Assembly: GCF_003601925.1 (NCBI RefSeq)
Contig: NZ_QZWH01000016.1
Location: 1 to 64,000 of the forward strand
Direction: 5' to 3'
Origin: Buttiauxella izardii
GTDB lineage: Bacteria > Pseudomonadota > Gammaproteobacteria > Enterobacterales > Enterobacteriaceae
DNA length: 64,000 nucleotides
Made by a program: the position numbers and the translations under genes. Positions within the stretch are counted from its first letter, which is position 1. Each line of letters opens with the position of its first letter. Shown in pieces: positions 28,905 to 47,840 of this stretch. The notes below the pieces were generated by a model. That model was not told the origin of the DNA, did not search any database, and saw nothing but the letters and a program-made list of their open reading frames with translations.

Positions 28905-30389
28905 TTATTCCTTGTCAAGCCTGCCAACAAGAGATAATTCAAAGTTAGCACCCATGTATTTAAAATGAGGGCGAACTGAAATAGCGACCTGATACCAACC
29001 AGGCTCACCATCAACATCTAATACATCAATTTTGGCTGCGCGAAGAGGTTTGCGGCTACGTACGTCTGCTGGTGGATTTTCTTGATCGGCAATGTATTGC
29101 TTGATCCAGTTATTCAACTCGCGTTCCAGATCGTTACGAACCTTCCACGAACCGATTTGCTCGCGCTGCAGCACTTTGATGTAGTGCGCCAGGCGGTTGA
29201 TAATGAACATATACGGCAGTTGCGTACCCAACTTATAGTTGGTTTGCGCAATTTTCCCTTCCGGTGTGCCAGGGAATTTACGAGGTTTTTGCACTGAGTT
29301 TGCAGAGAAGAAGGCTGCATTATTGCTCCCCTTACGCATGGTCAGCGTAATAAATCCCTCTTCGGCAAGCTCAAATTCACGACGGTCGGTGACGAGGATT
29401 TCTGTTGGGATTTTGGCTTGTGTTTGACCTAATGCGTCAAAGAGATGCACTGGCAAATCGTTTACCGCTCCGCCGCTTTGTGGGCCAATAATATTTGGAC
29501 ACCAGCGATATTTAGCAAAGCTATCCGTCAGGCTACTTGCCAATAAGAAGGCCGTGTTTCCCCATAAATAATCTTCATGACGATGGCTAACATCTTCCTG
29601 AAAATTAAAGTTTTTAATGGGGTTTTCGATAGGTGAATAAGGCAGGCGCAATAAGAAGCGTGGTGCCGTTAGGCCCAGATAACGGGCATCTTCAGATTCA
29701 CGCAATGTGCGCCACTTGGTATATGACGGTCCTTCAAAAATTGATGCGACGTCTTTGATCGTTGGCAATTCAGTAAAGGATTTTAAACCGAAGAAATCAG
29801 GCGATACAGAAGTCAGGAATGGGGCGTGAGCCATTGCTCCTACTGCGCTCACATAGTTCAGCAGCTTCATATCCTGAGCGGTATTGTTAAATGCGTAGCT
29901 GCCAATGATTGAAGCAATAGGTTCGCCGCCAAACTGACCATAACCCGATGAATAAACGTGCTTATAAAATCCAGATTGAACAATCTCAGGAGCAAATTCA
30001 AAATCTTCCAGCAGCTCTTCTTTGGTCGCATGCAGGATATTAATTTTGATGTTTTCTTTGAAATCTGTGCGGTCAACTAGCAGCTTCATCGAGCGCCAGA
30101 ATGACTCAACTTCCTGGAATGGTTCAGCATGCAAAATGTTATTCATCTGCTTGCTAATTTTGCTGTCCAGCTCTGCAATCATGCGATCGACCGCGAGTTT
30201 GTTCACTGGATCCTGGTGATTACCCGTCTGCAAGATGCTGGTGACAAACGCGGCAATGCCCTGGCGAGCAACATCATAACCGTCAGACTCTGGCTGAATG
30301 CGGGTCTGAGCCATGATCTCATCCAGAAGCGATGTTGATTTAGCAACCGCTCCCTTCACGGGCGAGGCAAGTTCTTCCTGTAATGACAT
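28905..30389 (-). CDS. tssC: T6SS contractile sheath large subunit TssC (VipB)
   Basis: A 494-residue large sheath protein that with TssB forms the contractile tube around Hcp. Conserved parts: WRSMKLLVDRTDFKENI, LLNYVSAVGAMAHAPFLTSVSP, RFLLRLPYSP and the ending LVGRLDKE. ATG 30389 is chosen because AAGAAGGA lies 8 nt upstream; a TTG two codons earlier is unlikely. ClpV should recognise its N-terminal helix. Confidence 0.96.
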   Translation of the reverse strand: MSLQEELASPVKGAVAKSTSLLDEIMAQTRIQPESDGYDVARQGIAAFVTSILQTGNHQDPVNKLAVDRMIAELDSKISKQMNNILHAEPFQEVESFWRSMKLLVDRTDFKENIKINILHATKEELLEDFEFAPEIVQSGFYKHVYSSGYGQFGGEPIASIIGSYAFNNTAQDMKLLNYVSAVGAMAHAPFLTSVSPDFFGLKSFTELPTIKDVASIFEGPSYTKWRTLRESEDARYLGLTAPRFLLRLPYSPIENPIKNFNFQEDVSHRHEDYLWGNTAFLLASSLTDSFAKYRWCPNIIGPQSGGAVNDLPVHLFDALGQTQAKIPTEILVTDRREFELAEEGFITLTMRKGSNNAAFFSANSVQKPRKFPGTPEGKIAQTNYKLGTQLPYMFIINRLAHYIKVLQREQIGSWKVRNDLERELNNWIKQYIADQENPPADVRSRKPLRAAKIDVLDVDGEPGWYQVAISVRPHFKYMGANFELSLVGRLDKE

Positions 30390-30409
30390 GTTCAAAATCC
30401 TTCTTAAAA

Positions 30410-30907
30410 TTATGCCTTATTGACGATATCGAGCTCTTTGAGGAGTTGGGCACGCGACTCCTCTTGATCCAGCAATGCCTGTAACTGAGAGCGGAAAGCA
30501 GGAACATTGCCCATTGGCCCTTTCAATGCGACCAAAGCCTCACGGAGTTCAAGCAATTTTCTGAGTTCAGGAATCTTTCTGGCGATGTTATCCGGGGAGA
30601 AATCTTCGAGTGATTTCACATCAAGCTCGACCTGCATCTCTTCACCTTTTTTCTCGCTTAGGGCGTTGCCCACGCTAAAATTCAGGTTGATACCCGTCTC
30701 ACTCATGACTGAGTTAAAATTGTTTTTGTTGATAGAAACTGAACTGCGTTCATCTAACTGTGAATCTTCCGCTCGGCCTTTCATATCGCCGACGACTAAT
30801 AAATTCAGCGGTAATTCAACCTCAGAATTTAATCCATCAGCTTTTGGAACATAACGGATGTTAATTCGCTCTTTAGGTGCGACGCTACCGTCTTTACTGT
30901 TACTCAT
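30410..30907 (-). CDS. tssB: T6SS contractile sheath small subunit TssB (VipA)
   Basis: A 165-residue small sheath subunit. VAPKERINIRYVPKADG, LPLNLLVVGDMKG and the long central segment FSPDNIARKIPELRKLLELREAL are standard TssB. It is the first gene of the minus-strand T6SS operon; the promoter must lie in the 530-bp gap before it, shared with the divergent hcp. Confidence 0.96.
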   Translation of the reverse strand: MSNSKDGSVAPKERINIRYVPKADGLNSEVELPLNLLVVGDMKGRAEDSQLDERSSVSINKNNFNSVMSETGINLNFSVGNALSEKKGEEMQVELDVKSLEDFSPDNIARKIPELRKLLELREALVALKGPMGNVPAFRSQLQALLDQEESRAQLLKELDIVNKA

Positions 30908-31437
30908 ATTTGGTTACCCTTTTTGTTACGCACTTTTAGCATGCCAGGCATCGATTGACCGGCTTTATTAATAAATACAATATGGACGGTAATATCTTGC
31001 TGGTTAACCCTGAATTGCGGCTACGTTATCACTATAAGTCGATATTTTGTATAGGTGCAAAAGTACAGAAAACGACTTTCCAAATTTATTATTTGCTACT
31101 GGTGTATGTTTACAACTTGACCCCAAGTGGGAAAGCACCACTTTTAGGGGTTGTTGTATTATGTTTTTGTATATTTCATGGGTTACTTATAATTTAAAAT
31201 AGTGATTAAGGTAGGGATACGGACATTGCCTTATTTTTGGTTTTTTCATCTATTTACTAATGTTATTTTATCGCTGATTTCATTTTTGTTCTGTTTGCCA
31301 GTTGAGAAGTTTTAACGATGCGAGTGATTTTATTTCATCCATTTTATTTAGTTCTCTGAGTGGCTGGCCAACCTAATGAATATGTGGGAATCAACGTTGA
31401 TTTATAGTGATGTTTATTACTTACAGGAGTTTTTTCA
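30908..31437. other. Divergent intergenic region between tssB and hcp
   Basis: 530 AT-rich bases that should contain the promoters of the main T6SS operon (leftward) and of hcp (rightward). I see no sigma-54-type site, no recognisable operator and no convincing gene. An 80-codon open frame (30955-31197) lacks a good start site. Its length and AT content are suggestive of a silenced, multi-regulated control region. Confidence 0.6.
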
Positions 31438-31956
31438 ATGCCAACCCCATGTTATATATCAATGACGGGTCAGACCCAGGGACATATTACCGCTGGCGCT
31501 TTCACCTCTGAATCGGTCGGGAATATTTATGTTCAGGGGCATGAAGATGAAATGCTGGTGCAAGAGTTCCAGCATATCGTCACGGTTCCTACAGATCCGC
31601 AATCAGGCCAGCCTGCTGGTCAACGTGCTCACAAACCTTTCATTTTCACCGTGGCGCTGAATAAAGCTGTACCGCTGCTTTATAACGCATTGGCTTCCGG
31701 TGAAATGTTGCCAACGACAGAACTGAAATGGTTCCGTACATCTGTAGAAGGTAAGCAGGAGCATTTCTTCACTACGCGCCTGACTGACTCCACCATTGTG
31801 GATATCAATTGCCATATGCCGCATTGCCAGGACTCAACTAAGCGTGAGTTCACCCAGTTGATCCAAGTCTCTCTTGCTTACCGCAAAATTGAATGGGAAC
31901 ACACGTCTGCTGGTACTTCAGGTGCTGACGACTGGCGTGCTCCACTGGAATCTTAA
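31438..31956 (+). CDS. hcp: T6SS tube protein Hcp (TssD)
   Basis: A 172-residue Hcp1-family protein forming the hexameric inner tube. Its family segments are ISMTGQTQGHITAG, the HEDEMLVQEFQHIV region, and VSLAYRKIEWEHTSAGTSGADDW at the C terminus. A strong AGGAG site lies upstream, and its own palindromic terminator follows. It is monocistronic and divergent from tssB, the usual arrangement for the abundantly expressed Hcp. Confidence 0.96.
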   Translation: MPTPCYISMTGQTQGHITAGAFTSESVGNIYVQGHEDEMLVQEFQHIVTVPTDPQSGQPAGQRAHKPFIFTVALNKAVPLLYNALASGEMLPTTELKWFRTSVEGKQEHFFTTRLTDSTIVDINCHMPHCQDSTKREFTQLIQVSLAYRKIEWEHTSAGTSGADDWRAPLES

Positions 31957-32906: not shown

Positions 32907-32941
32907 GCCTGAATCAGAATTGATTCAGGCTTTCATCGTTT
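32907..32941 (+). repeat. Right copy of the tRNA-Asp terminator (island-flanking repeat)
   Basis: The segment matches 33 of 35 bases of 9868-9902 in the same orientation. The hairpin is GCCTGAATCA / TGATTCAGGC followed by TTTCATCGTTTT. It points rightward although no rightward gene precedes it (hcp has its own terminator, the lipoprotein and permease are leftward), so it looks like a displaced duplicate and not a working terminator. Confidence 0.85.
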
Positions 32942-34434
32942 TAATCTTTCGAAACCACAACCTGCCCGTTGTATTCAGGCACATCAGAGACTTTCTCGGC
33001 ACGAGCCAGCCAGCGGTAGCAGCCTGCACTCATAAATGCACCGATAAACCAGCTAAAGTTCGCCACTTCATGAAGCGAAGGAATAAAGCTGATGGTCAGA
33101 CAAATGGCGACGGACGGCACCAGCGCAAGAATTGCTTTGGGATTGAATCCGCCTTTGTACCAATAGCGGCCTTTGGAAGTGTCATCAAACAAGTCGTCGA
33201 CGTAAATCTTGCTGCGCTTAATCACGTAGAAATCGGTCAGCAGAATGCCAAATAGCGGCCCAATAAACGATCCCAGCACATCGAGCGTGTAGTGAATAAG
33301 TTCAGGTGACTGGAACAGGTTCCACGGTGTCAGCAATACAGAACCCACAGCTGCAATCATCCCACCGGTACGGAAGCTGATTTTCTGCGGCGAGCAGTTA
33401 GAGAAGTCGAATGCCGGGGAGACGAAGTTCGCCACGATATTAATGCCAATGGTGGCGGTAATCATGGTCAGCAAGCCAATGGCCATCGCGAGGCTATTGC
33501 CCACGTGGCTTACGGTTTCGATTGGGTCGGTAATCATTTTGCCAAATAGTGATTGTGTGCCGGAAACAATAACCACGGTCACAATCGAGAACAGCAGGAA
33601 GTTAAACGGCAGTCCCCAGCGGTTGCCACGGCGGATCTCTTTCATACTTTTTCCGTAGCGCGAGAAGTCACCGAAGTTCAACAATGGGCCGGAGAAGTAG
33701 GAAACGACCAGTGCCGTTGCGGTCAGCATTTGCCAGGCTTGTTCGCCTGAAGTGAGTTGTTTGCTGGCAAGAGTAAACGAAATTCCGTCAAACCCTGTTT
33801 GATACAAAATCCAGCCTGCCAGAGCCATCATCACTACATAAACCGCAGGCCCAGCGATATCAATAAAGCGCTTAATGGCGTTCATGCCGTGCCAGAACAC
33901 CATCGCTTGCAGTACCCACATGATGCCAAAGCAGATCCAGCCGAGATGTGAGAGGCCGAGGAAATGCCCGGTCGTCATCGGCGCGAGCGACGGCCAGAAT
34001 TTCAACATGACTAACATCAGCGCGTTGGCTGCCAGATAAGTTTGGATGCCGTACCAGGCGAACGCGATAAGCCCGCGAATCACCGCCGGAATATTTGCCC
34101 CGAAGACGCCAAATGCCTGGCGGCAAATGACCGCATAAGGCACACCCGCCATCTGGCTTGGTTTTGCGACCAGGTTTGCACACAGTTGCACGATACAAAT
34201 TCCGACCAACAGGCACAGCAAAACTTGCCAGCTCGCCAGCCCTAATGTGAAGAAACTGGCGGCCACCACATAGCCACCCATACTGTGCACATCGGACATC
34301 CAGAAAGAAAAAATATTATACCAGGACCATGTCTGGTTGCGCGTCGGCGCCAAATCTTCGTTACACAGGCGCGGGCCGTACCCGGCATTGGCGCTATCGG
34401 TCATGGTTGCTGACGTATTTTCAGTGTTTGGCAT
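32941..34434 (-). CDS. NCS1-family allantoin/hydantoin permease
   Basis: A 497-residue inner-membrane transporter with about 12 transmembrane segments of the nucleobase-cation-symport-1 family (PucI, AllW, Mhp1). The start of helix 1, TWSWYNIFSFWMSDVHSMGGY, carries the family substrate/cation-site motif, and NFGDFSRYGKS and GINIVANFVSPAFDFSN are further NCS1 marks. The allantoin racemase/allantoinase genes alongside make allantoin the likely substrate. ATG 34434 has AAAGGAG 8 nt upstream. The longer frame to 34509 would place a palindrome and a sigma-54-like promoter inside the coding region. Confidence 0.88.
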   Translation of the reverse strand: MPNTENTSATMTDSANAGYGPRLCNEDLAPTRNQTWSWYNIFSFWMSDVHSMGGYVVAASFFTLGLASWQVLLCLLVGICIVQLCANLVAKPSQMAGVPYAVICRQAFGVFGANIPAVIRGLIAFAWYGIQTYLAANALMLVMLKFWPSLAPMTTGHFLGLSHLGWICFGIMWVLQAMVFWHGMNAIKRFIDIAGPAVYVVMMALAGWILYQTGFDGISFTLASKQLTSGEQAWQMLTATALVVSYFSGPLLNFGDFSRYGKSMKEIRRGNRWGLPFNFLLFSIVTVVIVSGTQSLFGKMITDPIETVSHVGNSLAMAIGLLTMITATIGINIVANFVSPAFDFSNCSPQKISFRTGGMIAAVGSVLLTPWNLFQSPELIHYTLDVLGSFIGPLFGILLTDFYVIKRSKIYVDDLFDDTSKGRYWYKGGFNPKAILALVPSVAICLTISFIPSLHEVANFSWFIGAFMSAGCYRWLARAEKVSDVPEYNGQVVVSKD

Positions 34435-34473
34435 GAAATCTGCTCCTTTAAAAACAGATGCTGACGGAATGTC

Positions 34474-34489
34474 TGCAACTTTTGTTGCA
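34474..34489. promoter_or_regulatory. Palindrome in the permease leader, possible operator
   Basis: A perfect inverted repeat TGCAAC-TTTT-GTTGCA lies 40 bp upstream of the permease ATG, where the transcript would begin from the sigma-54-like site at 34486-34501. It may bind a local regulator; identity unknown. Confidence 0.5.
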
Positions 34490-34501
34490 TTAACCAGGCC
34501 A
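34486..34501 (-). promoter_or_regulatory. Sigma-54-like promoter for the permease gene
   Basis: Read on the minus strand: TGGCCTGGTTAATGCA, with the GG and GC pairs separated by the required 10 bases. It is weaker than consensus (TGGCAC-N5-TTGCA) but correctly placed about 50 bp upstream of the ATG. Confidence 0.45.
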
Positions 34502-34656
34502 GGTTTCATATTTTATGGAACGAATGGATTTTTCAGGCTTTTAAGGGCAGGAATAAGTCCGTGGCAATGCACATAACGCTTCACCATAGTGCAACCGATC
34601 ATTTTATTGCCCGGATCTGGTGCTAAATCGAAGGTAAAAAATACAGAGGACTCAGC

Positions 34657-35394
34657 ATGACGAAACATTTGATCCAGGTGATCAACCCAAATACGAACAT
34701 TGCGATGACGCACACTATTGCAGAAGCAGCGCGAAGCGTGGCGGCTCCATCAAGCGAGATCGTTGCCGTTTGCCCCACGCAAGGTGTGGAATCTATAGAA
34801 GGACATTTTGATGAAGCCATTGCCGCCATCGGCGTGCTTGAGCAAATCAAGCGTGGCAAGGAGCAGGGCGTGAGTGGCCATGTGATTGCCTGTTTTGGCG
34901 ATCCTGGTTTGCTGGCAGCGCGTGAACTGGCGGATGGGCCGGTTATCGGTATCGCCGAAGCGGCGATGCATGTTGCAACGATGGTTGCGACACGCTTCTC
35001 AATTGTGACTACCTTGCCGCGCACGGTCATCATCGCGCGCCATTTATTACAACAGTATGGATTTGAGCACCACTGTGCGGCGCTACATGCGATCGATCTT
35101 CCGGTTCTCGCTTTGGAAGATGGCACGGGTCTTGCTCAGATGAAGGTACGCGAGCGTTGTATACAAGCTATGAAGGAAGATAACAGCGGAGCCATTGTGC
35201 TCGGTTGCGGTGGGATGGCGAATCTTGCCCGGGAACTGACTGCCGAATTAGGCATTCCGGTTATCGATGGCGTCACGGCTGCGGTGAAAATGGTGGAATC
35301 CCTCATCGCACTTGGCCTTGGAACCAGTAAACACGGCGACCTCGCGTATCCGAATAAAAAGCCGTTATCAGGCTGTTTTGACATGCTGAGTTGA
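34657..35394 (+). CDS. hpxA: Allantoin racemase
   Basis: A 245-residue Asp/Glu/hydantoin-racemase-family enzyme that interconverts R- and S-allantoin. Both catalytic cysteines are present at the positions reported for Klebsiella HpxA: Cys79 in VIACFGDPGL and Cys184 in VLGCGGM. The start VINPNTN is typical of the family. The ATG has AGAGGA upstream. Allantoinase follows after 31 bp, so the two form an operon that lets the cell use racemised allantoin. Confidence 0.93.
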   Translation: MTKHLIQVINPNTNIAMTHTIAEAARSVAAPSSEIVAVCPTQGVESIEGHFDEAIAAIGVLEQIKRGKEQGVSGHVIACFGDPGLLAARELADGPVIGIAEAAMHVATMVATRFSIVTTLPRTVIIARHLLQQYGFEHHCAALHAIDLPVLALEDGTGLAQMKVRERCIQAMKEDNSGAIVLGCGGMANLARELTAELGIPVIDGVTAAVKMVESLIALGLGTSKHGDLAYPNKKPLSGCFDMLS

Positions 35395-35425: not shown

Positions 35426-36373
35426 ATGACTGCTGTAAAAACCTATAACTTTACTGAAAACTACCCGCGTGACATGAAGGGTTACGCGGGTAAGCCGCCC
35501 CATGCGCAGTGGCCGAATAACGCCCGTATTGCCGTGCAATTTGTGCTTAATTTTGAAGAAGGCGGTGAAAACCACGTTCTGCATGGCGACGCCGGTTCTG
35601 AACAATTCCTTTCCGATATCATCGGCGCGGCCAGTTTCCCTGACCGCCATATGTCGATGGATTCGCTCTATGAATATGGCTCGCGCGCCGGGTTCTGGCG
35701 CATTCACAATGAATTTCAGAAACGCGGCTTGAGCATGACGGTTTTTGGTGTTGCGATGGCGCTGGCGCGAAATCCCGAAATTGTGGAGGCGATCAAAGCG
35801 GCGGACTACGACGTGGTGAGTCACGGCTGGCGCTGGATCCACTATCAAAATCTTGATGAAGCCACCGAGCGCCAGCACATGCATCAAGCCATCGAAATCC
35901 TTGAGGATTTGTTCGGCAGCAAACCCATCGGCTGGTACACCGGGCGCGACAGCCCGAACACTCGCAGGCTGGTGGCGGAAAATGGCAACTTTATGTATGA
36001 CAGCGATTATTACGGCGACGACCTACCGTTCTGGAGCGAAGTCGCTTGCAGCGATGGCAGCGTAAAACCCCATCTGATCGTGCCCTATACGCTGGATGCT
36101 AACGACATGCGCTTTGCCACCGCGCAGGGTTTTAACACCGCCGAGCAGTTTTATACTTATCTGAAAGACAGTTTTGACGTGTTGTACGAGGAAGGGGAAA
36201 CCGCTCCGAAAATGATGTCGATTGGCATGCATTGCCGCTTGCTAGGTCGCCCTGGTCGTTTCAAAGCGCTACAGCGTTTTCTGGATTACGTGCAGCAACA
36301 TGACGATGTGTGGATTTGCCGTCGTCAGGATATTGCCGAGCATTGGGTGAAGACGCATCCGTTTAACAAATGA
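35426..36373 (+). CDS. hpxB: Allantoinase (PuuE/HpxB type)
   Basis: A 315-residue cofactor-independent allantoinase of the polysaccharide-deacetylase fold, which opens the allantoin ring to give allantoate. Recognisable segments: YPRDMKGYAGKPPHAQWP, VQFVLNFEEGGEN, YDVVSHGWRWIHY (conserved His), GWYTGRDSPNTRRLV and IGMHCRLLGRPGR. This class is unrelated to the metal-dependent AllB of E. coli. It is co-transcribed with hpxA. Confidence 0.94.
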   Translation: MTAVKTYNFTENYPRDMKGYAGKPPHAQWPNNARIAVQFVLNFEEGGENHVLHGDAGSEQFLSDIIGAASFPDRHMSMDSLYEYGSRAGFWRIHNEFQKRGLSMTVFGVAMALARNPEIVEAIKAADYDVVSHGWRWIHYQNLDEATERQHMHQAIEILEDLFGSKPIGWYTGRDSPNTRRLVAENGNFMYDSDYYGDDLPFWSEVACSDGSVKPHLIVPYTLDANDMRFATAQGFNTAEQFYTYLKDSFDVLYEEGETAPKMMSIGMHCRLLGRPGRFKALQRFLDYVQQHDDVWICRRQDIAEHWVKTHPFNK

Positions 36374-36409: not shown

Positions 36410-36793
36410 TTAACTCATCAAGCTGACATGGGCGGCGACAATGCGCCAACCGTAGGGAAACTTCACCCATGTTTGCATCTGACGGCCAATTTTGTCGCTG
36501 CCTTCCCGAGTAAATTCGGTGCTGGCAACGGCCATATCATCACCGTAAGTGGTGATCGTCGTGTTCTGTAAAAGCCGGTCTAAGCCCTGTGATGATCGTG
36601 TATTTCTGAACGCTCTGATCTCATCGATCCCATACAGGTTTTCACTGGCACCGTAGCGAACAGTGCGCGGATCGGACCAAAATAATTCATCTAACACCGC
36701 AACATCGTTGCTAATCAGCGCTTGTTCGTAGCGGTAAAAAGCGGCACTCACTTCATTGACGATTGCCGGGCGATCAATATTGTCTCGCATCAT
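36410..36793 (-). CDS. hpxZ: Oxalurate catabolism protein HpxZ
   Basis: A 127-residue NTF2/SnoaL-like (DUF3225) protein: AFYRYEQALISNDVAVLDELFW, VRYGASENLYGIDEIRAFR and the C-terminal GWRIVAAHVS. It belongs to the hpxWXYZ operon of Klebsiella, assigned to oxalurate breakdown; its relative AtzH acts beside AtzE/AtzG in s-triazine degradation. Its own reaction here is not settled. ATG 36793 with AGGTAA upstream is chosen; the longer frame would overlap hpxY. Confidence 0.87.
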   Translation of the reverse strand: MMRDNIDRPAIVNEVSAAFYRYEQALISNDVAVLDELFWSDPRTVRYGASENLYGIDEIRAFRNTRSSQGLDRLLQNTTITTYGDDMAVASTEFTREGSDKIGRQMQTWVKFPYGWRIVAAHVSLMS

Positions 36794-36803
36794 AATATTT
36801 ACC

Positions 36804-38183
36804 TTACCTGGTGATTTTCCCTGCCAGCATACCCTGTATTTCAAGCCGATGGGCGGCTCTCAGGCAGATATCTTCTCGCCATGGCGGCGCAATGAGCTGC
36901 ACGCCAATTGGGTTGCCGCTTGCCGTCATTAACGGCACTGTTACGACCGGGAGGCCGAGGAACGAAATCGGCTGGGTTAGCATTCCCATGCTAGCTTTTA
37001 CCGGAAGATCGGTTCCGTTGATTCGCATGGTTTGCTGGCCGATAAGTGTGGCGCTGCATGGCGTTGCCGGGGCGATTAACAGATCAAATTTGTCGAATAG
37101 CGGCAGCGTTTTATCACGGAACCATGCGCGGAAACGTTGTGCCTGCGTGTACCAGGCGGATGGCGACATCGCCCCAGCCAGCAGGCGCTCGCGAGAGTTA
37201 ATTTCAAAACGTTCCGCCTCTTCGCGCAACGCGGGCAAATAATGGTTTCCCCCTTCAGCCGCAGAGAGTAAAAAAGCCGCCGAGCGCGCTAATTCGGCTT
37301 CGGGCAACGTGATGCAATCCAGTGCTTCGAGCGACTGAGCCACGCGAGCGACGGCATTTTTGGCATCAATATCACACCAGGTTTCAAAAAAACCACCCAA
37401 CACCACGCACCGTAAATGCGATGAGTGTCCCAGTTTATCGGCGACGGGTTCAGTTTCCCGAGTCGACTGAAAATGATCATCCGCATCCCTTCCCTGAAGC
37501 GCGTCATAAACCAGAGCCAGATCATCTACGCTACGAGCCAGCGGGCCGATATGATCGAGGCTTGCAACAAAAGGCTGGCTGCCTCTGCGCGACAATCTGC
37601 CGAAAGTCGGTTTCAGCCCCAGAATGCCGCATAACGAAGCGGGGACACGAATCGATCCGTTGGTATCAGTGCCGAGGGTAAAATTTACCATTCCAGCCGC
37701 GACGGCTGCCGCAGAGCCGCCGGATGAACCGCCCGCAATTCGTGTTAAATCATGCGGGTTGCGGGTCGCGCCATAATGGCTATTTTCGGTGGTAAAGCCG
37801 TAGGCGTAGGCATCCATATTCAGCGCGCCTGAAAGCATCGCTCCGGCAGCGTTTAATTTTTTAATCGCGAAAGCATCAATGGCGGCGGGCGGTTTTGTAC
37901 TAAACAATTCGGCACCGGCAAGTGTTGTTACGCCTTCAATATCAAAGAGATTTTTTACCGCATAAGGCACGCCAGCCAACGGAGGCAGCGTTTCCCCGCG
38001 CGCGCGCAGTTGGTCAATGGCGGCGGCTTCTTGCAGTAAACGCGAGGCGGTAATTTCCGTAAACGCATTAATATCAGGATTAACTTGCTCGATTTTCGCA
38101 AGCGTGACCTGAGCCAAATCCTGTGCGGAAAACTCGCCGATAGCTAATCCTTGCTGAATATCGCGAATGGAAAGTGCGTTCAT
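36804..38183 (-). CDS. hpxY: AtzE-family amidohydrolase HpxY
   Basis: A 459-residue amidase-signature enzyme. The Ser-cisSer-Lys triad is visible: Lys in YAVKNLFD (about 82), the GGSSGGS loop (about 155) and the nucleophile Ser in [10 protein letters not shown] (about 180). It is thought to hydrolyse an oxalurate-derived ureido acid; the homologue AtzE acts on 1-carboxybiuret. Its start overlaps the hpxX stop by 4 bp (ATGA), fitting an obligate small-partner complex like AtzE-AtzG. Confidence 0.9.
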
Positions 38184-38368
38184 AACTTATAAATCCCCGC
38201 GACTTCCTGGCGTTCAGGCAATGGGAAATCGATTAACGGTTCTGCCATTTTCTCCATGCGTGTCAATTGCACTTCAAGTTCCTGGCGGCGTGGCTCATCA
38301 ACGGGAACGTCAAGCAGTTGCTCCATGACTTTGATATACGCGGGCCAGTCGATAGAATTTAATAGCAT
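38180..38368 (-). CDS. hpxX: Small partner protein HpxX (AtzG-like, DUF4089)
   Basis: A 62-residue protein. The start is ATG 38368 with AAGGAG 6 nt upstream; the frame is open for longer but those codons belong to hpxW. The helical segment around YIKVMEQLLDVPVDEPRR and the end PLPERQEVAGIY match the small GatC-like AtzG family, which stabilises the AtzE-type amidase. It overlaps hpxY by 4 bp. Confidence 0.87.
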   Translation of the reverse strand: MLLNSIDWPAYIKVMEQLLDVPVDEPRRQELEVQLTRMEKMAEPLIDFPLPERQEVAGIYKL

Positions 38369-38378
38369 TTTGTTCTCC

Positions 38379-39965
38379 TTAGAATCCTGCGGCGCTGCCG
38401 TTGCTGCGTGGGTCGTATGCGCCTTCGAGCATGCCATTGGTGTGGCGCACGATGGCACCCGCATGGCCGACGGCTTCGCTAAAATCGGGCAATGCCTCAA
38501 CGTCATGCCCCAATTCTTGTAACGCTTTGAAAGTTTCAGGGCTGAAGCGGCCTTCTAATTTCAGGCTGTCGGAAGCTTGCCCCCAGGTTCTGCCGAGCAG
38601 CCAACGTGGAGCGGTGACCGCTTCCTGAAGTGCCATGCCCTGAATGACGTGGCGGGTAAAAATGGCGGCCTGAGTTTGTGGCTGTCCGTCACCGCCCATC
38701 GAGCCATAAACCATGGTGCGCCCATCAGCCAGGCGTGCGGCGGCTGGGTTCAGCGTGTGGAATGGCTGTTTCCCGGGAGCCAGGCTGAGCAAACTTTCCG
38801 GGTTGAGGCTGAACGCCGCGCCCCGGTTTTGCCACAACACGCCGCTTTTAGGCAGCACCACGCCGCTGCCAAATTCGTGATAAATACTTTGAATAAACGA
38901 AACCGCCAGGCCGCTGCTATCAATCACACCCATCCAGACCGTGTCGCCGGGGCCTTTGCCGGTTCCCCAGTCTGCGGCTTTGTGGTCATCAATTTCTGCG
39001 GCGAGTGCGGCGAGCGGTTCAGGTTCCAGCAAACTCTGGATTGAAGTGGTGATATGGCGCGGATCGGTGATGTATTTGTCACGCAGCGCAAAAGCTTTTT
39101 TGGTCGCTTCGACGATGCGATGAACCGTTTGTGTTTCATTGGCTTGCGCCATATCCAGATTCTCGGTGATCCCTAGGATCGCCAGCGAAACCAGGCCTTG
39201 CGTCGGCGGCGTCATATTATAAACATCGCCCAAATGGTGGCCCAGATGCAGAGGGATACGCCGTTTGGCGCGTTGCGCGGCGAGATCCTGCAACGTAATC
39301 GGCATACCTGATTCAGCAAGCTCTTCGGTGATCAGCGCCGCCAACGGGCCGCGATAAAAACTCTCAAGCCCTTCAACGGTCAGGCGGGTTAAGGTTTCGG
39401 CCAGCCGTGGCTGAGTGAAACGGCTGCCCGCGCGTGGGATTTCGCCTCGGTCTAAAAAAGTTTCGGCAAATCCGGAGATGTTAACCAGCTCGTCGTATTT
39501 GCTGTGCGTCGCCAGCGCCTGAGATTGGGTGACTGGAATGCCGTCAGCCGCGTAGCGTATGGCATCGGCCAGCAAACGTGACAGCGGCAATTGCCCGCCG
39601 CCCAGTTGTGTCGCTATCTTTAAAGCTTCGTCCCAACCGCTCACGGTTCCCGGCACAGTAAGCGCTGCTTTAGGGCCACGATGCGGGATTGACGTTTCGC
39701 CTGCGTAAAATTCCAAAGATGCGAGAGAACCCGCAGCACCGCTGGCATCAATGGCAATCGGTTCGCCTTCCGGCGGCACAATCAGCCAGAAACCATCACC
39801 GCCAATACCATTCATGTGGGGATAAACCACGGCAATCGTTGCCGCCGCTGCCACCATCGCTTCGATAGCATCGCCACCGTGGCGCAGCACGGATAATGCG
39901 GTTTCACTGGCTAAATGGTGCGGTGTCACCGCCATACCGGACGGGGCCATATTGCTTTGCATCAT
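38379..39965 (-). CDS. hpxW: Oxamate amidohydrolase HpxW (gamma-glutamyltransferase-like)
   Basis: A 528-residue Ntn-hydrolase that splits itself into two chains; the Klebsiella enzyme converts oxamate to oxalate and ammonia. The predicted autocleavage nucleophile is the Thr in GPGDTVWMGVID (about residue 340), and a conserved GSMGGDGQPQTQ oxyanion segment lies near 435. No signal peptide is visible, so unlike classic gamma-glutamyltransferase it should be cytosolic. First gene of hpxWXYZ; the ribosome-binding site is weak (GAGA). Confidence 0.9.
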   Translation of the reverse strand: MMQSNMAPSGMAVTPHHLASETALSVLRHGGDAIEAMVAAAATIAVVYPHMNGIGGDGFWLIVPPEGEPIAIDASGAAGSLASLEFYAGETSIPHRGPKAALTVPGTVSGWDEALKIATQLGGGQLPLSRLLADAIRYAADGIPVTQSQALATHSKYDELVNISGFAETFLDRGEIPRAGSRFTQPRLAETLTRLTVEGLESFYRGPLAALITEELAESGMPITLQDLAAQRAKRRIPLHLGHHLGDVYNMTPPTQGLVSLAILGITENLDMAQANETQTVHRIVEATKKAFALRDKYITDPRHITTSIQSLLEPEPLAALAAEIDDHKAADWGTGKGPGDTVWMGVIDSSGLAVSFIQSIYHEFGSGVVLPKSGVLWQNRGAAFSLNPESLLSLAPGKQPFHTLNPAAARLADGRTMVYGSMGGDGQPQTQAAIFTRHVIQGMALQEAVTAPRWLLGRTWGQASDSLKLEGRFSPETFKALQELGHDVEALPDFSEAVGHAGAIVRHTNGMLEGAYDPRSNGSAAGF

Positions 39966-40003: not shown

Positions 40004-40019
40004 AGCAAGAGATGTTCCA
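40004..40019 (-). promoter_or_regulatory. Sigma-54-type promoter for hpxWXYZ
   Basis: Minus strand: TGGAACATCTCTTGCT, close to TGGCAC-N5-TTGCW with the GG/GC pairs 10 bases apart. It lies about 40 bp upstream of the hpxW ATG, so initiation near 39992 is expected. Confidence 0.68.
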
Positions 40020-40033
40020 GGTTGACTCGGTTA

Positions 40034-40061
40034 GTTTCACTGTGCCAGGCTCGAGTGAAAC
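40034..40061. promoter_or_regulatory. Inverted repeat between hpxW and hpxU, candidate HpxU operator
   Basis: Perfect 8-bp arms GTTTCACT / AGTGAAAC separated by 12 bases lie 20 bp before the hpxU ATG and just upstream of the hpxW promoter. A half-site GTTTCAC recurs at 41151-41157 before hpxJ. An RpiR-type repressor site is the simplest reading (inference). Confidence 0.55.
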
Positions 40062-40080
40062 AAAAGTTACAGAGGTCATG

Positions 40081-40920
40081 ATGAAACAATTAGATGAACG
40101 CTTAAGGGCGACATACGAACAGCTTTCCCCGCAGGAACAGCGAGTTGCTGCGTTTATTGTCGATCATTTTGATGACCTGATTAGCTACAACAGCGCCGAA
40201 CTGGCCCGTCTTTCTGGCGTTTCAAAAGCCACGGTGAGCCGCCTGTTTAAGCGCCTTGGCTACGACCGTTATAAAGATATGCGTGAAGAACTGCGCAATC
40301 TGCGTCAGAGCGGAATGCCGCTCACAGAAAACCGTGATGCGGTGCAAGGTAACACGCTGTTGGCGCGGCATTATAAACAGGAAATGGCGAATCTGACGCA
40401 GTGGGTCAGCCTGCTCGAAACGCAGCAATTTTCCGAGGTTGTGACGGCGCTGACGACGGCAAAACGTATTTTTATTATCGGCTTAAGAAACTCGTGGCCG
40501 GTCGCAATGCACCTGCGCCAACAGTTATTGCAGGTACGTAGCGACGTTTATCTATTGCCGCAGCCGGGCCAGACGCTGGCCGAAGAAGTGGTGGATATCA
40601 GCGAACAAGATTGTGTTATCGCTATCGCGTTCCGCAGGCGTCCGCGCATTATCAAGCCGCTGCTGGCGAATCTGCATCAGCGGCAGGTGCCGCTTTTGGT
40701 AATGAGTGAAGCGCAGGGTTCGGGCTTGACGCCTTATTGCCGCTGGCATTTTGCCGCCCCGCTGGACAGCGTTTCAGCCTTCGACAGTTACAGCAGCGCG
40801 ATGAGCCTCGTCAATTTGTTATCCAACGCCGTTCTCCACGAAGCGTTAACCACAGGCCGCCAGCGTATTCATCATATTGCTGAGTTGTATTCTGAACTGG
40901 ATGAGCTCGAGCAACGCTAG
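40081..40920 (+). CDS. hpxU: RpiR-family transcriptional repressor HpxU
   Basis: A 279-residue regulator: N-terminal helix-turn-helix (about 1-77, SAELARLSGVSKATVSRLFKRLGY) and C-terminal SIS sugar-isomerase-like ligand domain (about 120-260). In Klebsiella, HpxU represses the allantoate genes. ATG 40081 is chosen because AGAGG lies 5 nt upstream; the ATG one codon earlier is too close. It is divergent from hpxWXYZ and precedes the hpxJ operon. Confidence 0.9.
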   Translation: MKQLDERLRATYEQLSPQEQRVAAFIVDHFDDLISYNSAELARLSGVSKATVSRLFKRLGYDRYKDMREELRNLRQSGMPLTENRDAVQGNTLLARHYKQEMANLTQWVSLLETQQFSEVVTALTTAKRIFIIGLRNSWPVAMHLRQQLLQVRSDVYLLPQPGQTLAEEVVDISEQDCVIAIAFRRRPRIIKPLLANLHQRQVPLLVMSEAQGSGLTPYCRWHFAAPLDSVSAFDSYSSAMSLVNLLSNAVLHEALTTGRQRIHHIAELYSELDELEQR

Positions 40921-41177: not shown

Positions 41178-42419
41178 ATGTTCGATATTCAGCACTTCTC
41201 ACAAATCAATCCGCCACATCGGTTGTTGATGGGGCCGGGGCCAATTAATGCCGATCCCCGCGTATTACGGGCGATGGCGAGCCAGTTGATTGGGCAATAT
41301 GACCCGGTCATGACCGGTTATATGAACGAAGTGATGGTGCTGTATCGCGAACTTTTCCGTACTCAAAACCGTTGGACAATGCTGGTGGATGGCACTTCTC
41401 GCTCCGGCATCGAAGCGATTTTGCTTTCTGCGATTCGCCCCGGCGACAAAGTGCTGGTGCCGGTATTTGGCCGTTTCGGTCATCTGCTATGTGAAATTGC
41501 CCGCCGCTGCCGCGCAGAAGTTCACACTATTGAAGTGCCGTGGGGAGAAGTATTCACACCCGACCAAATCGAAGATGCTATCAAAACGGTAAAACCGCGT
41601 TTGCTGCTGACGGTTCAGGGCGATACATCCACCACCATGCTACAGCCCCTGGAAGAACTCGGTGAAATCTGCCGCCGCCACGGCGTGCTGTTTTACACCG
41701 ATGCCACGGCGTCATTTGGTGGCAACAAACTGGAAACCGACGCCTGGGGTTTAGATGCGGTTTCAGCCGGGTTGCAAAAATGCCTCGGAGGCCCGTCTGG
41801 CAGCTCGCCGATCACCCTCAGCGCACAAATGGAAGAAGTGATCCGCCGCCGTAAATGTGTGGAAGAGGGCATTCGTACTTCCGCGCATCAGGATGGCGAT
41901 GACGAAATGATCTACTCGAATTATTTCGATCTCGGCATGGTCATGGATTACTGGGGCCCGGAGCGCCTGAACCACCACACGGAAGCGACCAGCATGTTGT
42001 TTGCCGCCCGTGAATGCGCGCGCATTATTCTGGAAGAAGGGGTGGATGTGGGGATTGCTCGCCACGAACTGCACGGACGTGCGCTGGTGGCCGGGATTCA
42101 GGGCATGGGGCTGGAAACCTTCGGCAATCTGCAACATAAAATGAATAACGTGCTCGGCGTGGTGATCCCTTCAGCCGTTCACGGCGAAGAAGTGCGCAAA
42201 ATGCTGCTAGAAGATTTCCATATTGAAATCGGCACCTCGTTTGGCCCGCTGCAAGGCAAAATCTGGCGCATCGGCACCATGGGTTATAACGCGCGCAAAG
42301 ATTGTGTGCTGCAAACGCTGACGGCGCTGGAGGCGGTGCTGAATCGTCTTGGGTTCAAGTCGACGCAAGGGGCAGCAATGCAGTCGGCTTGGGATGTTTA
42401 TGCGCAGGAAAATCGCTGA
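41178..42419 (+). CDS. hpxJ: Ureidoglycine-glyoxylate-type aminotransferase HpxJ
   Basis: A 413-residue PLP-dependent class V aminotransferase of the PucG/alanine-glyoxylate type. The PLP lysine is in SAGLQKCLGGPSG (about 199), with the DATASFGG Asp (about 176) and the N-terminal LLMGPGPINADPRVL. It is expected to transaminate S-ureidoglycine with glyoxylate, giving oxalurate and glycine, so feeding HpxWXYZ. First gene of a three-gene operon; its TGA overlaps the next ATG (ATGA). Confidence 0.88.
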   Translation: MFDIQHFSQINPPHRLLMGPGPINADPRVLRAMASQLIGQYDPVMTGYMNEVMVLYRELFRTQNRWTMLVDGTSRSGIEAILLSAIRPGDKVLVPVFGRFGHLLCEIARRCRAEVHTIEVPWGEVFTPDQIEDAIKTVKPRLLLTVQGDTSTTMLQPLEELGEICRRHGVLFYTDATASFGGNKLETDAWGLDAVSAGLQKCLGGPSGSSPITLSAQMEEVIRRRKCVEEGIRTSAHQDGDDEMIYSNYFDLGMVMDYWGPERLNHHTEATSMLFAARECARIILEEGVDVGIARHELHGRALVAGIQGMGLETFGNLQHKMNNVLGVVIPSAVHGEEVRKMLLEDFHIEIGTSFGPLQGKIWRIGTMGYNARKDCVLQTLTALEAVLNRLGFKSTQGAAMQSAWDVYAQENR

Positions 42420-44170
42420 TGGTTAAACATGTCATGAATGCCGCGCAGGCCAGCGCCGCCGCTCGCCGGGTTATGCAGCGCGCGGATGAACTCGCGCAAA
42501 TTAGCGAAACACCGGGCCAGCTCACGCGCGTTTATCTCTCCCCTGAACATCTGCGGGCTAACCACATGCTTGGAGCATGGATGGAACAAATCGGCATGGC
42601 CACCTGGCAAGATGCGGTGGGCAATATTTGTGGGCGCTACGAAGGGGCAAGTGAAGGCGCTCAGGCGATTTTGCTGGGTTCGCACCTCGACACGGTACGC
42701 AATGCCGGGCGCTACGACGGCATGTTGGGCGTACTTACCGCGCTGGAAGTGGTCGCATTTCTCTATGAAAACAATCTTCAATTAGAGCAGGCGATTGAAA
42801 TTGTTGGCTTTGGAGATGAAGAGGGCACGCGTTTTGGCATCACATTATTAGGCAGCCGTGGTGTAACCGGAACCTGGCCGGATAACTGGCTGGCCTGCGA
42901 AGATGCGGCAGGAATCAGCGTCGGGCAAGCGCTGGTAAATGCCGGTTTTGATCCTTCGCGTATTCAGAGTGCCGCGCGCAGCCCGGAAGAATTCAGCGCT
43001 TATCTGGAAATGCATATTGAGCAAGGGCCGGTGCTTGAGCGTGAAAATCTGGCGCTTGGCGTGGTGACGGCGATTAACGGTGCTCGCCGTCTGAAATGCC
43101 GATTTGTTGGCGAAGCAGGCCATGCAGGCACGGTTCCGATGACTCTTCGTAAAGATGCGCTCGCCGCCGCTGCCGCGTGGATGACTGACATCGAAACAGC
43201 GACAGCGGCTTATGCGCCGGATATTGTCGCGACGGTCGGCACGCTGCAATGCTTACCGGGAGCGGCGAATGTGATTCCCGGCGAAGTGAATCTGACGCTG
43301 GATATTCGCAGCCCACGAGATTCTGACCTCGAATTGTTGCTCGCAAAATTGTTGAACCAGGCGCAGCAAATCGCCGCTCAACGAGGCGTAACCTTTAGCG
43401 CCGAAACTTACTATTCCATCCCTGCGACACCTTGCGATACTCGTTTACAACAAGCGTTAACATCATCTATTTCTGCGGTGCAGGGGCGCAGTTTATCTTT
43501 GCCAAGTGGCGCGGGGCACGATGCTATCGCCATCGCAGAACACTGGCCGGTGGGCATGATGTTTGTGCGCTGCGACCGCGGGATAAGCCACCATCCGGCG
43601 GAGTCTGTGATTGAAGCTGATGTGATGCAGGCAGTGCAGGCGTTTACACAAACGGTAATGGCGTTGGCGGCGAATCCTCTGGCTGAATTTAACGACGCCA
43701 CTAACAGCGATGCGCTGAATCTGGTTGCGCCATGCGTCGCGATTGCGACCTGGGCTGAAAACCTGGTTGCCGCTCGCCCTTATTCGAGCGTCGATGTATT
43801 GCAGCATTATGCTTCGCAACTGACTTTGGATTGGGGGCGTGAGGAGCTAAATCAGGCGCTTAGCGCACATCCGCGCATCGGCGAAAAAGCGCAGGGCAGC
43901 AGTCAAGAGGCGGCACTTTCGAAAGGTGAACAATCCGCCGTTGATACCGAAAACAGTGCATTAACGCTCGCGCTGGCGCAAGGCAATGCGCAATACGAGG
44001 CGCAATTTGGGCGTGTTTTTTTGATTCGAGCTAAAGGTCGCTGCGGTGAAGAAATTCTCGGGGAGCTTAAGCGCCGCCTGAATAATTCGCCGGAAGAAGA
44101 AGAGCTTGAAGCGCTGGAGCAATTACGCCAAATCACGTTGTTACGCCTCGAAGGAGTGTTTGCCGCATGA
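42419..44170 (+). CDS. Fused allantoate amidohydrolase and OHCU decarboxylase
   Basis: A 583-residue fusion. Residues about 1-415 form an M20/AllC-type allantoate amidohydrolase with metal ligands His89, Asp100, Glu135, His199 and His391-region plus GHD at 366-368. Residues about 418-583 form a UraD/HpxQ-type 2-oxo-4-hydroxy-4-carboxy-5-ureidoimidazoline decarboxylase (SAHPRIGEK with His484, GEQ with Glu504, FGRVFLIRAKG, RRLNNSPEEE). The joint is in frame with no stop or repeat. The product would act at two separate points of one pathway: OHCU to S-allantoin and allantoate to ureidoglycine. The start overlaps the hpxJ stop. Confidence 0.88.
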   Translation: MVKHVMNAAQASAAARRVMQRADELAQISETPGQLTRVYLSPEHLRANHMLGAWMEQIGMATWQDAVGNICGRYEGASEGAQAILLGSHLDTVRNAGRYDGMLGVLTALEVVAFLYENNLQLEQAIEIVGFGDEEGTRFGITLLGSRGVTGTWPDNWLACEDAAGISVGQALVNAGFDPSRIQSAARSPEEFSAYLEMHIEQGPVLERENLALGVVTAINGARRLKCRFVGEAGHAGTVPMTLRKDALAAAAAWMTDIETATAAYAPDIVATVGTLQCLPGAANVIPGEVNLTLDIRSPRDSDLELLLAKLLNQAQQIAAQRGVTFSAETYYSIPATPCDTRLQQALTSSISAVQGRSLSLPSGAGHDAIAIAEHWPVGMMFVRCDRGISHHPAESVIEADVMQAVQAFTQTVMALAANPLAEFNDATNSDALNLVAPCVAIATWAENLVAARPYSSVDVLQHYASQLTLDWGREELNQALSAHPRIGEKAQGSSQEAALSKGEQSAVDTENSALTLALAQGNAQYEAQFGRVFLIRAKGRCGEEILGELKRRLNNSPEEEELEALEQLRQITLLRLEGVFAA

Positions 44171-44502
44171 GCCAGTTAAGTACTCATATTCTTGATACCG
44201 CGTTGGGAAAACCTGCGAAGGACGTGGTGATTCGCCTTGAACAGCAGATTGCAGAGCAATGGGAAGTGATTGCGCAAGGTGTGACGGATGCGGACGGGCG
44301 GCTAAAAGATTTCACCCCAGCGCATTTGGCGGCGGGGCGTTATCGCCTGACTGCCGAAATCGGGCATTATTTTGCCGCAACGCAGCGGGAAACGCTTTAT
44401 CCCAGCGCGCAAATTGATTTCATGATTACGCAAAACGGCGGGCATTATCACCTGCCGTTTCTGATTTCCCCGTGGTCGTGGTCGACTTACAGAGGTTCGT
44501 AG
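44167..44502 (+). CDS. hiuH: 5-Hydroxyisourate hydrolase
   Basis: A 111-residue transthyretin-like enzyme that hydrolyses 5-hydroxyisourate to OHCU. The N-terminal LSTHILDTALGKPA (catalytic His7), HYHLPFLISPWSW and the terminal YRGS signature are intact; no signal peptide is present, so the enzyme is cytosolic. The start overlaps the fusion-gene stop by 4 bp (ATGA). Its product is the substrate of the UraD domain encoded just before it. Known in Klebsiella as HpxT. Confidence 0.93.
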   Translation: MSQLSTHILDTALGKPAKDVVIRLEQQIAEQWEVIAQGVTDADGRLKDFTPAHLAAGRYRLTAEIGHYFAATQRETLYPSAQIDFMITQNGGHYHLPFLISPWSWSTYRGS

Positions 44503-45270
44503 TTAAAGGCTGAACGGATCGGCATCTTGCCAGGCGGGGAATTTCTCGCGGTATTCTTGCAATGCAATCAGCGATAAATCGGCATCGAGCCGCATCGCCT
44601 GATGGGCTTCGCCATTCGCCAGAATTTCACCCTGAGGATTAATAATTTTGCTATCGCCACGGTAATGATGCCCGTTACCGTCGGTGCCAACACGGTTGCA
44701 GCCCGCGACATACGCCTGGTTTTCAATGGCGCGAGCAATCAGTAAACTTTGCCAATGCAGAGAGCGCGGGGCAGGCCAGTTCGCCACATACAACGCCAGG
44801 TCATAATCGTTGCGGTTGCGTGAAAATACCGGGAAGCGCAGGTCGTAACACACTTGCGGCAGAATGCGCCAGCCGCGCCATTCCACGATAACTCGCTCAT
44901 TGCCCGCCTGATAATGATGATGTTCATCCGCCATGCGGAAGAGGTGGCGTTTATCGTAGAAGTGGACTTTGCCGTCGGGCTGAACCAGCAGAAAACGGTT
45001 TACTGGCCCACGTTCGGTTTGCAATGCCGCACTTCCGGCAATCATCGCCTGAGTTTGCTGGGCTTTAAACTGCATCCAGTCAATCACTTCTTCTTCAGCA
45101 AGCGACTGTGTGGCGGCTTCCATTGCAAAACCGGTAGTGAACATTTCCGGCAAGACAATCAGATCGCGGCCATGAATAGCGTCCAACTGTACATCGAAAT
45201 GGCGCAAGTTTGCCGCGCCGTCCATCCAGACCAGCGGTTGTTGCAGAACGGTGATTTTCAAACCAGACAC
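44503..45270 (-). CDS. yafV: Omega-amidase YafV (nitrilase family)
   Basis: A 255-residue carbon-nitrogen hydrolase. The Glu-Lys-Cys triad is seen in VLPEMFTTGFA (Glu about 40), DKRHLFRMADE (Lys about 107) and PQVCYDLRFPV (Cys about 141). The E. coli enzyme hydrolyses alpha-ketoglutaramate and ketosuccinamate-type omega-amides in methionine salvage and transamination cycles. GTG 45270 matches the E. coli start; an ATG at 45285 is the alternative. Its stop abuts that of hiuH, marking the end of the purine insertion. The ivy gene that follows in E. coli is absent. Confidence 0.93.
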   Translation of the reverse strand: MSGLKITVLQQPLVWMDGAANLRHFDVQLDAIHGRDLIVLPEMFTTGFAMEAATQSLAEEEVIDWMQFKAQQTQAMIAGSAALQTERGPVNRFLLVQPDGKVHFYDKRHLFRMADEHHHYQAGNERVIVEWRGWRILPQVCYDLRFPVFSRNRNDYDLALYVANWPAPRSLHWQSLLIARAIENQAYVAGCNRVGTDGNGHHYRGDSKIINPQGEILANGEAHQAMRLDADLSLIALQEYREKFPAWQDADPFSL

Positions 45271-45319
45271 AATCGGAAGCCTCATGATAAACAGTGTTTC
45301 ATTCACTTTAGCATGAGTA

Positions 45320-45349
45320 GAAAAGAAAAAACCCCGCGAACGGGGTTTT
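45320..45349 (-). terminator. fadE terminator
   Basis: A 9-bp stem (AAAACCCCG / CGGGGTTTT) with a four-base loop and a T-rich run on the minus strand lies 9 bases after the fadE stop. Confidence 0.88.
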
Positions 45350-45357
45350 AAGAAGGC

Positions 45358-47802
45358 TTATGCCGCTTCAATCTTGCGATGCTTTTCCGGCACCTTTACC
45401 GGCATGGTTGCCAGTTCCTCCGGCTCAAACTCATCAACGTTGATACTGCGCAGACGGCTTGCTTCCGCTTTGGTCAGAATCGCCGCTTCTTCAGCGTTGA
45501 TTTTCCCTTCTGCCAGCCATTGTTTGGCCTGCTCATCAAGACGGGTAAACGACAGGTTACGCCCGGTTTCTTTACTGATGCGCAGATGGATTGGCTCAGC
45601 AGCCATCACGTCCATCAATGCTTCTTCCAGCAGGCCAGCCGGGTTGAACTCGCTTGGTGTCAGATACTGGCCGCGCCCGATACGTGAACGGGTAGCGGAT
45701 GGGATCTGCATGATCTTCGCCAGTTTGTGGTCCAGCTTGTCCGATGGAGCATCGTAACGACGGCCCAGCGGGAAGATAACCACGCGCAACATGCCAGCCA
45801 CAAACGCATTCGGGAAGTTACGCAGCAGGTCGTCAATCGCTTGCTCGGCCTGATACAGCGCATCCTGAACGCCCCAGTGAACCAACGGTAAATCCGCTTC
45901 GTTACGGCCTTCGTCGTCGTAGCGTTTCAGCACGGAAGAGGCGAGGTACAGCTGGCTTAACACATCACCCAGGCGAGCTGAAATGCGCTCGCGACGCTTG
46001 AGGCTGCCGCCCAATACCGCCATGGAAACATCTGACAGCAATGCCAGGTTGGCGCTCAGACGGTTCATGTACTGGTAGTAGCGTTTAGTCGAGTCTTTGG
46101 TCGGTGTGGCGCTGGTCAAACCGTTGGTCAGGCCAAGCCACAGGCTGCGCATTTTGTTGCTGCCGACGTGGCCGATATGCTTGAACAGCAGCTTATCGAA
46201 CGCGTTGACGTCATTGTTTTGCGCCGCATTCATCTCGTCGAGAACATACGGATGGCAACGAATCGCACCCTGGCCGAAGATAATCATGCTGCGGGTCAGG
46301 ATATTCGCCCCTTCAACAGTAATGGCGATTGGTGCGCCTTGATACGCTCGCGCCACAAAGTTGGAGTTGCCGAGCATAATGCCTTTACCGCCGAGAATAT
46401 CCATCGCGTCGAGAATCGCGCGCTGGCCACGGTGGGTACAGTGGTACTTCACGATAGCCGACAGCACCGCCGGTTTTTCACCGAGCATAATCCCGTAAGT
46501 CACCAGCGAAGCCGCCGCATCCATCACATAAGCGTTACCGGCAATACGCGCTAATGGCTCTTCAATCCCTTCCATTTTACCGATAGAAATTCTGAACTGG
46601 CGGCGAATGTGCGCATAAGCACCGGTTGCCATTGCCACAGATTTTAAACCACCGGTAGAGTTAGACGGCAGGGTAATGCCACGGCCAACGGACAAGCATT
46701 CCACCAGCATACGCCAGCCCTGGCCGGCCATTTTCGGACCACCGATGATGTAATCAATCGGCACGAAAATATCTTTACCGCGAGTTGGGCCGTTCTGGAA
46801 CGGTACGTTCAGCGGGAAGTGGCGTTTGCCAATTTCCACGCCCGGCGTGTGAGTTGGAATCAACGCACAGGTAATGCCGAGTTCTTCTTCATTGCCCAGC
46901 AGTTTATCCGGGTCAGACAGTTTGAATGCCAGGCCAAGAACGGTGGCGATTGGGGCCAGCGTAATGTAGCGCTTGTTCCAGGTCAGACGCATACCGAGAA
47001 CTTGCTGACCCTGCCATTCGCCCATACACACAACGCCAGTATCGGGAATCGCGCCCGCATCGGAGCCTGCTTCAGGGCTGGTCAGTGCAAAGCATGGGAT
47101 CTCTTGACCACGCGCCAGGCGTGGCAGGTAATGATCTTTCTGCTCTTCAGTACCGTAATGTTGCAGCAATTCGCCCGGGCCTAAAGAGTTAGGCACACCG
47201 ACGGTAATCGCCAGAATCCCGGAAACGCCCGACAGTTTTTGCAACACGCGAGATTGTGCATAAGCAGAGAACTCGAGGCCGCCGTACTCTTTCTTGATGA
47301 TCATCGCGAAGAAGCGATGTTCTTTTAAATATGCCCACAGTTCTGGCGGCAAATCGGCCATTTCGTGAGTGATTTGGAAGTCATTTGCCAGGCGGCAAGC
47401 TTCTTCAACCGGGCCGTCAATAAAGGCTTGCTCTTCTTCAGTCAGCTTAGGCTGCGGATAGTTGTGCAGTTTTTCCCAGTCTGGTTTCCCGCGGAACAAA
47501 TCGCCTTCCCACCAGGTTGTACCGGCATCGATAGCTTCTTTTTCAGTACGCGACATCGGCGGCATGACTTTACGGAAGCTGCGGAAGACTGGAGCGGAAA
47601 TCAAAGATTTGCGGATTGGTGTGAAAACAAACGGCACCAGAATAATCGCCAGCGGAACCAGTACCCAGATTGACCAGATACCGGCGAAACCAAGCGCTGC
47701 CGTCCACACCAGCAAAATTGCGCTACTCAGCAGTAAATTGACCTGGTGATAGAAAAGCACACCGAGGAGAACAACGGTTGCAACGATACTCAACATTAAC
47801 AT
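45358..47802 (-). CDS. fadE: Acyl-CoA dehydrogenase FadE
   Basis: An 814-residue FAD enzyme performing the first step of fatty-acid beta-oxidation. Two N-terminal hydrophobic segments (about 1-25 and 28-50) attach it to the inner membrane. The dehydrogenase core follows ([13 protein letters not shown] near 240, [16 protein letters not shown] near 340), with a long C-terminal extension ending HRKIEAA. ATG 47802 has GGGAG 8 nt upstream and gives exactly the E. coli length. A FadR operator lies upstream. Confidence 0.96.
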
Positions 47803-47823
47803 AAGGAAAACTCCCTTGCTTGT

Positions 47824-47840
47824 AGGAGGTCTGACCACTT
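47824..47840 (-). promoter_or_regulatory. FadR operator upstream of fadE
   Basis: AGGAGGTCTGACCACTT has the invariant core GGTCTGACC of FadR sites. It lies 22-38 bp before the fadE ATG, so FadR would repress fadE until long-chain acyl-CoA is present, as in E. coli. Confidence 0.8.

Follow-up and report, generated by a model that had tools for sequence, protein, structure and literature searches.

A single gene of Buttiauxella izardii, located within the 64,000-nucleotide stretch of contig NZ_QZWH01000016.1 analyzed here (the window), joins an allantoate amidohydrolase (AllC) to an OHCU decarboxylase (UraD) and, as judged from its sequence and those of its relatives, probably encodes a real, conserved bifunctional enzyme that is specific to one clade. 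This AllC-UraD fusion gene of the HpxK-HpxQ type, recognized by its frame and by profile matches, occupies positions 42419 to 44170 of the plus strand and is translated as one uninterrupted frame of 583 residues with zero internal stops. On the same strand, the N-terminal allantoate amidohydrolase domain covers residues 1–417 (42419–43669; NF006773 and conserved residues), a junction of three residues between the two domains follows (418–420; 43670–43678), and the C-terminal OHCU decarboxylase domain takes up residues 421–583 (43679–44167; TIGR03180 and alignment to 5uou and 3o7h). An AllC-type M20 enzyme and UraD in one frame of this length had been claimed by a sequence-only reading of this DNA, and this was borne out, both halves passing the curated cut-offs of their profiles.

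The open reading frame, if delimited mechanically, opens at a TTG at position 42302 and yields 622 residues; because six other Buttiauxella proteins align from the ATG at 42419, this codon is supported as the start of the fusion, where the gene overlaps the stop of the preceding aminotransferase gene by one base. The full-length fusion is found in six other named Buttiauxella records, which show 81–88% identity and are the closest matches in the genome collection.

In our sample of 295 genomes from the GTDB family, 68 carried UraD. AllC and UraD shared one frame in 17 of these, belonging to seven genera, while they were separate neighbors, AllC followed by UraD, in 27, and AllC was absent from the fetched stretch in the other 24. 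The search for the same domain pair in other genomes, put forward earlier as a check, has thus been run and found it in these 17 genomes and in the six Buttiauxella records. A sequencing or assembly error as the source of the fusion can practically be dismissed: nothing speaks in its favor, and it is ruled out by independent genomes, the same frame recurring in all those just counted. HpxO was encoded in the UraD stretch at 23 of the 24 loci without AllC, at none of the 17 fused loci, and at none of the 27 separate ones. UraD thus has two homes, one with HpxO and one with AllC, and the fusion arose in the second. That AllC of Klebsiella is a separate protein, as the sequence-only reading had stated, held for the one K. 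pneumoniae record, with an AllC frame of 459 residues and UraD unmatched within 12 kb on each side. In the plasmid collection, 1286 records gave a match, but in none did a single place span 80% of the query, and a fusion in this order was not seen there. On a plasmid of the insect-associated Serratia symbiotica, an aminotransferase gene and hpxK adjoin an amino acid ABC transporter, with the RpiR regulator seemingly split into two frames.

The amidohydrolase half (residues 1–417) matches NF006773 (PRK09290.2-2) with 734.5 bits at a curated cut-off of 584 and is 68.9% identical to a separate protein annotated as hpxK. With TIGR03176, the allantoate deiminase AllC equivalog, it reaches 256.8 bits, below the cut-off of 597.75; it is related to this equivalog but stands outside it. 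The M20 set, consisting of His89, Asp100, Glu134, Glu135, His199, and His391, which we take to be the catalytic residues, is identical in all 58 AllC rows, and all 12 AllC positions tested are invariant across 17/17 fused and 27/27 separate proteins as well as 14/14 proteins with the reverse domain order, described below.

Residues 424–580 of the decarboxylase half match TIGR03180 (UraD_2) with 174 bits (curated cut-off 139.4) and PF09349 with 136.4 bits (cut-off 24), while TIGR03164, representing the other OHCU decarboxylase subfamily, gives 53.5 bits, below its cut-off of 96.25. Residues 1–161 of the 163 in this half align to the OHCU decarboxylases 5uou and 3o7h. Seven of the 11 tested UraD positions are invariant in all 82 rows, including His484, Ser501, Glu504, Gln505, and Arg576, which are presumably catalytic; Leu535, Arg537, Arg541, and Glu544 vary, Arg537 being replaced by Ala in 14/14 reverse-order proteins. 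All five residues singled out in the sequence-only reading, namely His89, Asp100, His199, His484, and Glu504, stand at the positions given there.

Among 21 pairs of the seven Buttiauxella genes, dN/dS was 0.071 for the AllC half and 0.109 for the UraD half, values that are rough, as dS is about 1.2 and near saturation; they point to purifying selection on both halves. The somewhat faster evolution of the UraD half, together with a Leu in place of Arg541 in three of the 17 fused proteins, could be read as the mark of a vestigial or merely structural tail on an amidohydrolase that alone is active. We consider this very improbable: His484, Ser501, Glu504, Gln505, Arg537, and Arg576 are kept in 17/17 fused proteins, and a search of the genome, which comprises 91 contigs and is rated 100% complete, did not find a second UraD, so that the fusion carries the sole copy detected. 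A second close AllC was not found in the genome either, the one extra match having an E-value of 0.002 over 119 residues.

The fusion gene lies in a purine cluster. This includes a permease of the cytosine/purine/allantoin family (32941–34509, minus strand; PF02133), a member of the Asp/Glu/hydantoin racemase family (34657–35394, plus strand; PF01177), and the allantoinase PuuE (35426–36373, plus strand; TIGR03212, 527.6 bits, cut-off 424.6). For the racemase-family protein, no NCBIfam match at 1e-15 was found; judging from its context, it is probably an allantoin racemase. The minus strand further encodes an AtzH-like protein (36410–36844; PF11533), an AtzE-family amidase (36804–38183; NF006631, 741 bits, cut-off 461), the AtzG-like HpxX (38180–38506; NF033624, 89.4 bits, cut-off 70), and a gamma-glutamyltransferase-like protein (38379–39965; PF01019), and the plus strand an RpiR-family regulator (40012–40920; PF01418 and PF01380) and a class V aminotransferase (41178–42419; PF00266). 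We take the AtzH-like protein, the amidase, the gamma-glutamyltransferase-like protein, and the regulator to be HpxZ-, HpxY-, HpxW-, and HpxU-like, respectively, and presume the aminotransferase to be HpxJ-like from its position and the pathway; a class V aminotransferase was found at all 44 family loci with AllC beside UraD. Downstream, a 5-hydroxyisourate (HIU) hydrolase gene of the HpxT type (44167–44502, plus strand; TIGR02962, 126.9 bits, cut-off 87.45) overlaps the 3′ end of the fusion gene by 4 nt. At 68/68 family loci, fused or not, UraD is followed by a same-strand HIU hydrolase frame, so this adjacency is no specific explanation of the fusion, for which the sequence-only reading had proposed co-expression or assembly with HIU hydrolase. 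The urate hydroxylase HpxO is encoded on another contig of the same genome (629 bits, cut-off 500).

On its two sides, the purine cluster borders on other functions. Just upstream is a type VI secretion cluster (13322–31956) with IcmF-type, ClpV-like AAA, TssF, VipA, VipB, VasJ, VasI, FHA, and Hcp proteins. Adjoining it on the other side is a gene pair (44503–47838) resembling fadE and what we assume to be yafV; the yafV-like gene was seen in the fetched stretch at 12/17 fused, 22/27 separate, and 1/24 other family loci.

As neither enzyme was found in a second copy, and HpxO, HIU hydrolase, and PuuE are all encoded in the genome, the data are most simply read as showing a bifunctional enzyme. 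Very probably, going by these comparisons, the fusion acts in aerobic purine catabolism with two independent, tethered sites, having originated in a single event and been retained thereafter. The C-terminal domain would decarboxylate OHCU to S-allantoin, PuuE, encoded about 6 kb away, would perform the intermediate step, and the metal-dependent M20 domain at the N-terminus would hydrolyze allantoate to ureidoglycine. The allantoinase step falls between the other two, so the UraD and AllC reactions are not consecutive. Both active sites would work independently, tethered through the junction, which measures between three and eight residues from one matched domain to the other across the 17 fused proteins; we infer that both domains are active, that neither depends on the other, and that they were fused only once. 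The benefit might be, at a guess, that both domains are made in a fixed 1:1 ratio and that the small UraD domain is stabilized. An AlphaFold2 model (mean pLDDT 87.4) based on 25 alignment rows, only three of which were separate UraD rows, displays two folded domains, with a helix that ends at residue 417 followed by another from 420 onward; it is poor at residues 485–511 (pLDDT below 50), next to the UraD active site.

The junction is also where translation could start anew and release free UraD, fused and free forms then coexisting. With positions counted from the matched UraD start and hence approximate, an in-frame ATG lies seven codons ahead of the UraD domain, without a motif resembling a ribosome-binding site, and five of the 17 fused genes have a GTG at codon −21 that is preceded by such a motif. 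Across all 17, however, a motif-bearing start codon at one shared place is absent, and we regard an internal start as improbable.

With respect to its origin, the fusion can be compared with the separate enterobacterial genes for hpxK and OHCU decarboxylase, which belong to the same families and occur in the same order and operon in the 27 sampled genomes, but encode two proteins where Buttiauxella has one. Relative to the AllC stop, the UraD match at these loci starts anywhere from 10 nt upstream to 88 nt downstream, and its frame varies. Given such separate neighbors in the same order, the fusion most likely arose when the boundary between the genes was lost: two adjacent operon genes would have merged once, in an ancestor of the seven enterobacterial genera, and the merged gene would then have been retained. 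All our AllC and UraD trees were quick searches. The 17 fused rows lie on one side of a branch in the 44-row AllC tree (SH-aLRT 100), and the fused rows do so again in the 69-row AllC tree with outgroups and a mixture model (SH-aLRT 99), in which the separate rows do not form one clade, although constraining them to do so is not rejected (p-AU 0.49). The 133-row AllC tree, computed under a simpler model and with one too-short row dropped, needs two changes for the fused group and places separate rows inside fused ones, a nesting that would imply an older fusion and later splitting. In the UraD tree, built from 82 rows of this short domain, there is no single fused clade, though holding the clade together is not rejected (p-AU 0.215). 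On balance, the trees favor a single origin of the fused gene, and fusion over fission.

UraD is joined to other enzymes elsewhere. Our phylum-wide sample comprised 398 genomes, 141 of them with UraD, from which 27 UraD frames of at least 550 residues were classified along with 17 shorter ones. Among the long frames we counted four forward AllC-UraD (already known from the family loci), 13 reverse UraD-AllC, seven PuuE-UraD, and one UraD-HIU hydrolase fusion, while in two no such partner pair scored; the shorter frames included five PuuE-UraD and three UraD-HIU hydrolase fusions, nine being without a partner. In the PuuE-UraD and UraD-HIU hydrolase fusions, UraD is likewise joined to a pathway enzyme, but to another partner. 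The reverse UraD-AllC order was thus present in 13 of the 398 genomes, and Robbsia andropogonis is a named example; the sequence-only reading mentioned neither this reverse fusion nor the spread of the forward one over seven sampled genera. These 14 reverse rows lie on one side of a branch, apart from the forward rows, in both the 133-row AllC and the 82-row UraD tree; the genomes seem to be Burkholderia relatives, based on their grouping with Robbsia in the 69-row AllC tree.

Three scanned reverse fusions, including that of Robbsia andropogonis, have NF010373 as their best NCBIfam match, with 668.5, 880.1, and 1070.3 bits, below the cut-off of 1087, the profile covering nearly all or most of each protein. 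They pass TIGR03164 with 125.3, 182.3, and 171.4 bits (cut-off 96.25). NF010373 (PRK13799), termed ‘unknown domain/N-carbamoyl-L-amino acid hydrolase fusion protein’, thus resembles our fusion in having the same two domains on one chain, and the comparison suggests that its ‘unknown domain’ is an OHCU decarboxylase. It differs in that UraD comes first and in belonging to the other UraD subfamily and another AllC branch; the 583-residue AllC-UraD fusion, with its reversed domain order, reaches 388.3 bits, below the same cut-off. AllC-UraD therefore looks like a new order of a pair already known in fused form, and like an independent variant of it. We take the Conserved Domain Database entry PRK13590 to name a bifunctional OHCU decarboxylase/allantoate amidohydrolase; searched for this code, the open-licence literature returned no paper. 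Within the accessible text of that literature, no description of an AllC/UraD fusion was found. Of PucL, which the sequence-only reading cited as a Bacillus fusion of UraD with uricase, one paper says that it possibly also decarboxylates OHCU (PMC5270733).

Distant groups have fused this pair of non-consecutive enzymes, in one order or the other, which could mean that the joined UraD and AllC form a scaffold around PuuE, passing S-allantoin to PuuE and its product to the amidohydrolase in a three-step module. The distribution of PuuE is in keeping with this: it was found in the fetched stretch at 16/17 forward-fused and 11/14 reverse-fused loci, but at only 3/27 separate ones (and at 13/24 of the other family loci), the single fused locus without it being a contig of only 8473 bases. 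These counts cover the fetched stretches, however, and PuuE may sit elsewhere in a genome. Moreover, gene adjacency accounts for the forward fusion without any complex, and UraD may simply be fusion-prone, given its other partners, with 12 PuuE-UraD and four UraD-HIU hydrolase fusions among 40 loci picked for the length of their UraD frames. We consider such a scaffold rather unlikely. The stronger proposal, that the joining was selected twice independently and in opposite orders because it brackets PuuE, giving a three-enzyme assembly from OHCU to ureidoglycine, is in our estimate unlikely as well; if it were true, the first and third enzymes would be fused around a separate second one.

Two steps of urate breakdown that do not follow one another have apparently been brought together on at least two occasions, with the domain order inverted between them. 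Apart from this apparent convergence, the gene would be an ordinary operon fusion. The fused and split versions of related genera would allow a direct test of the reason for the joining.
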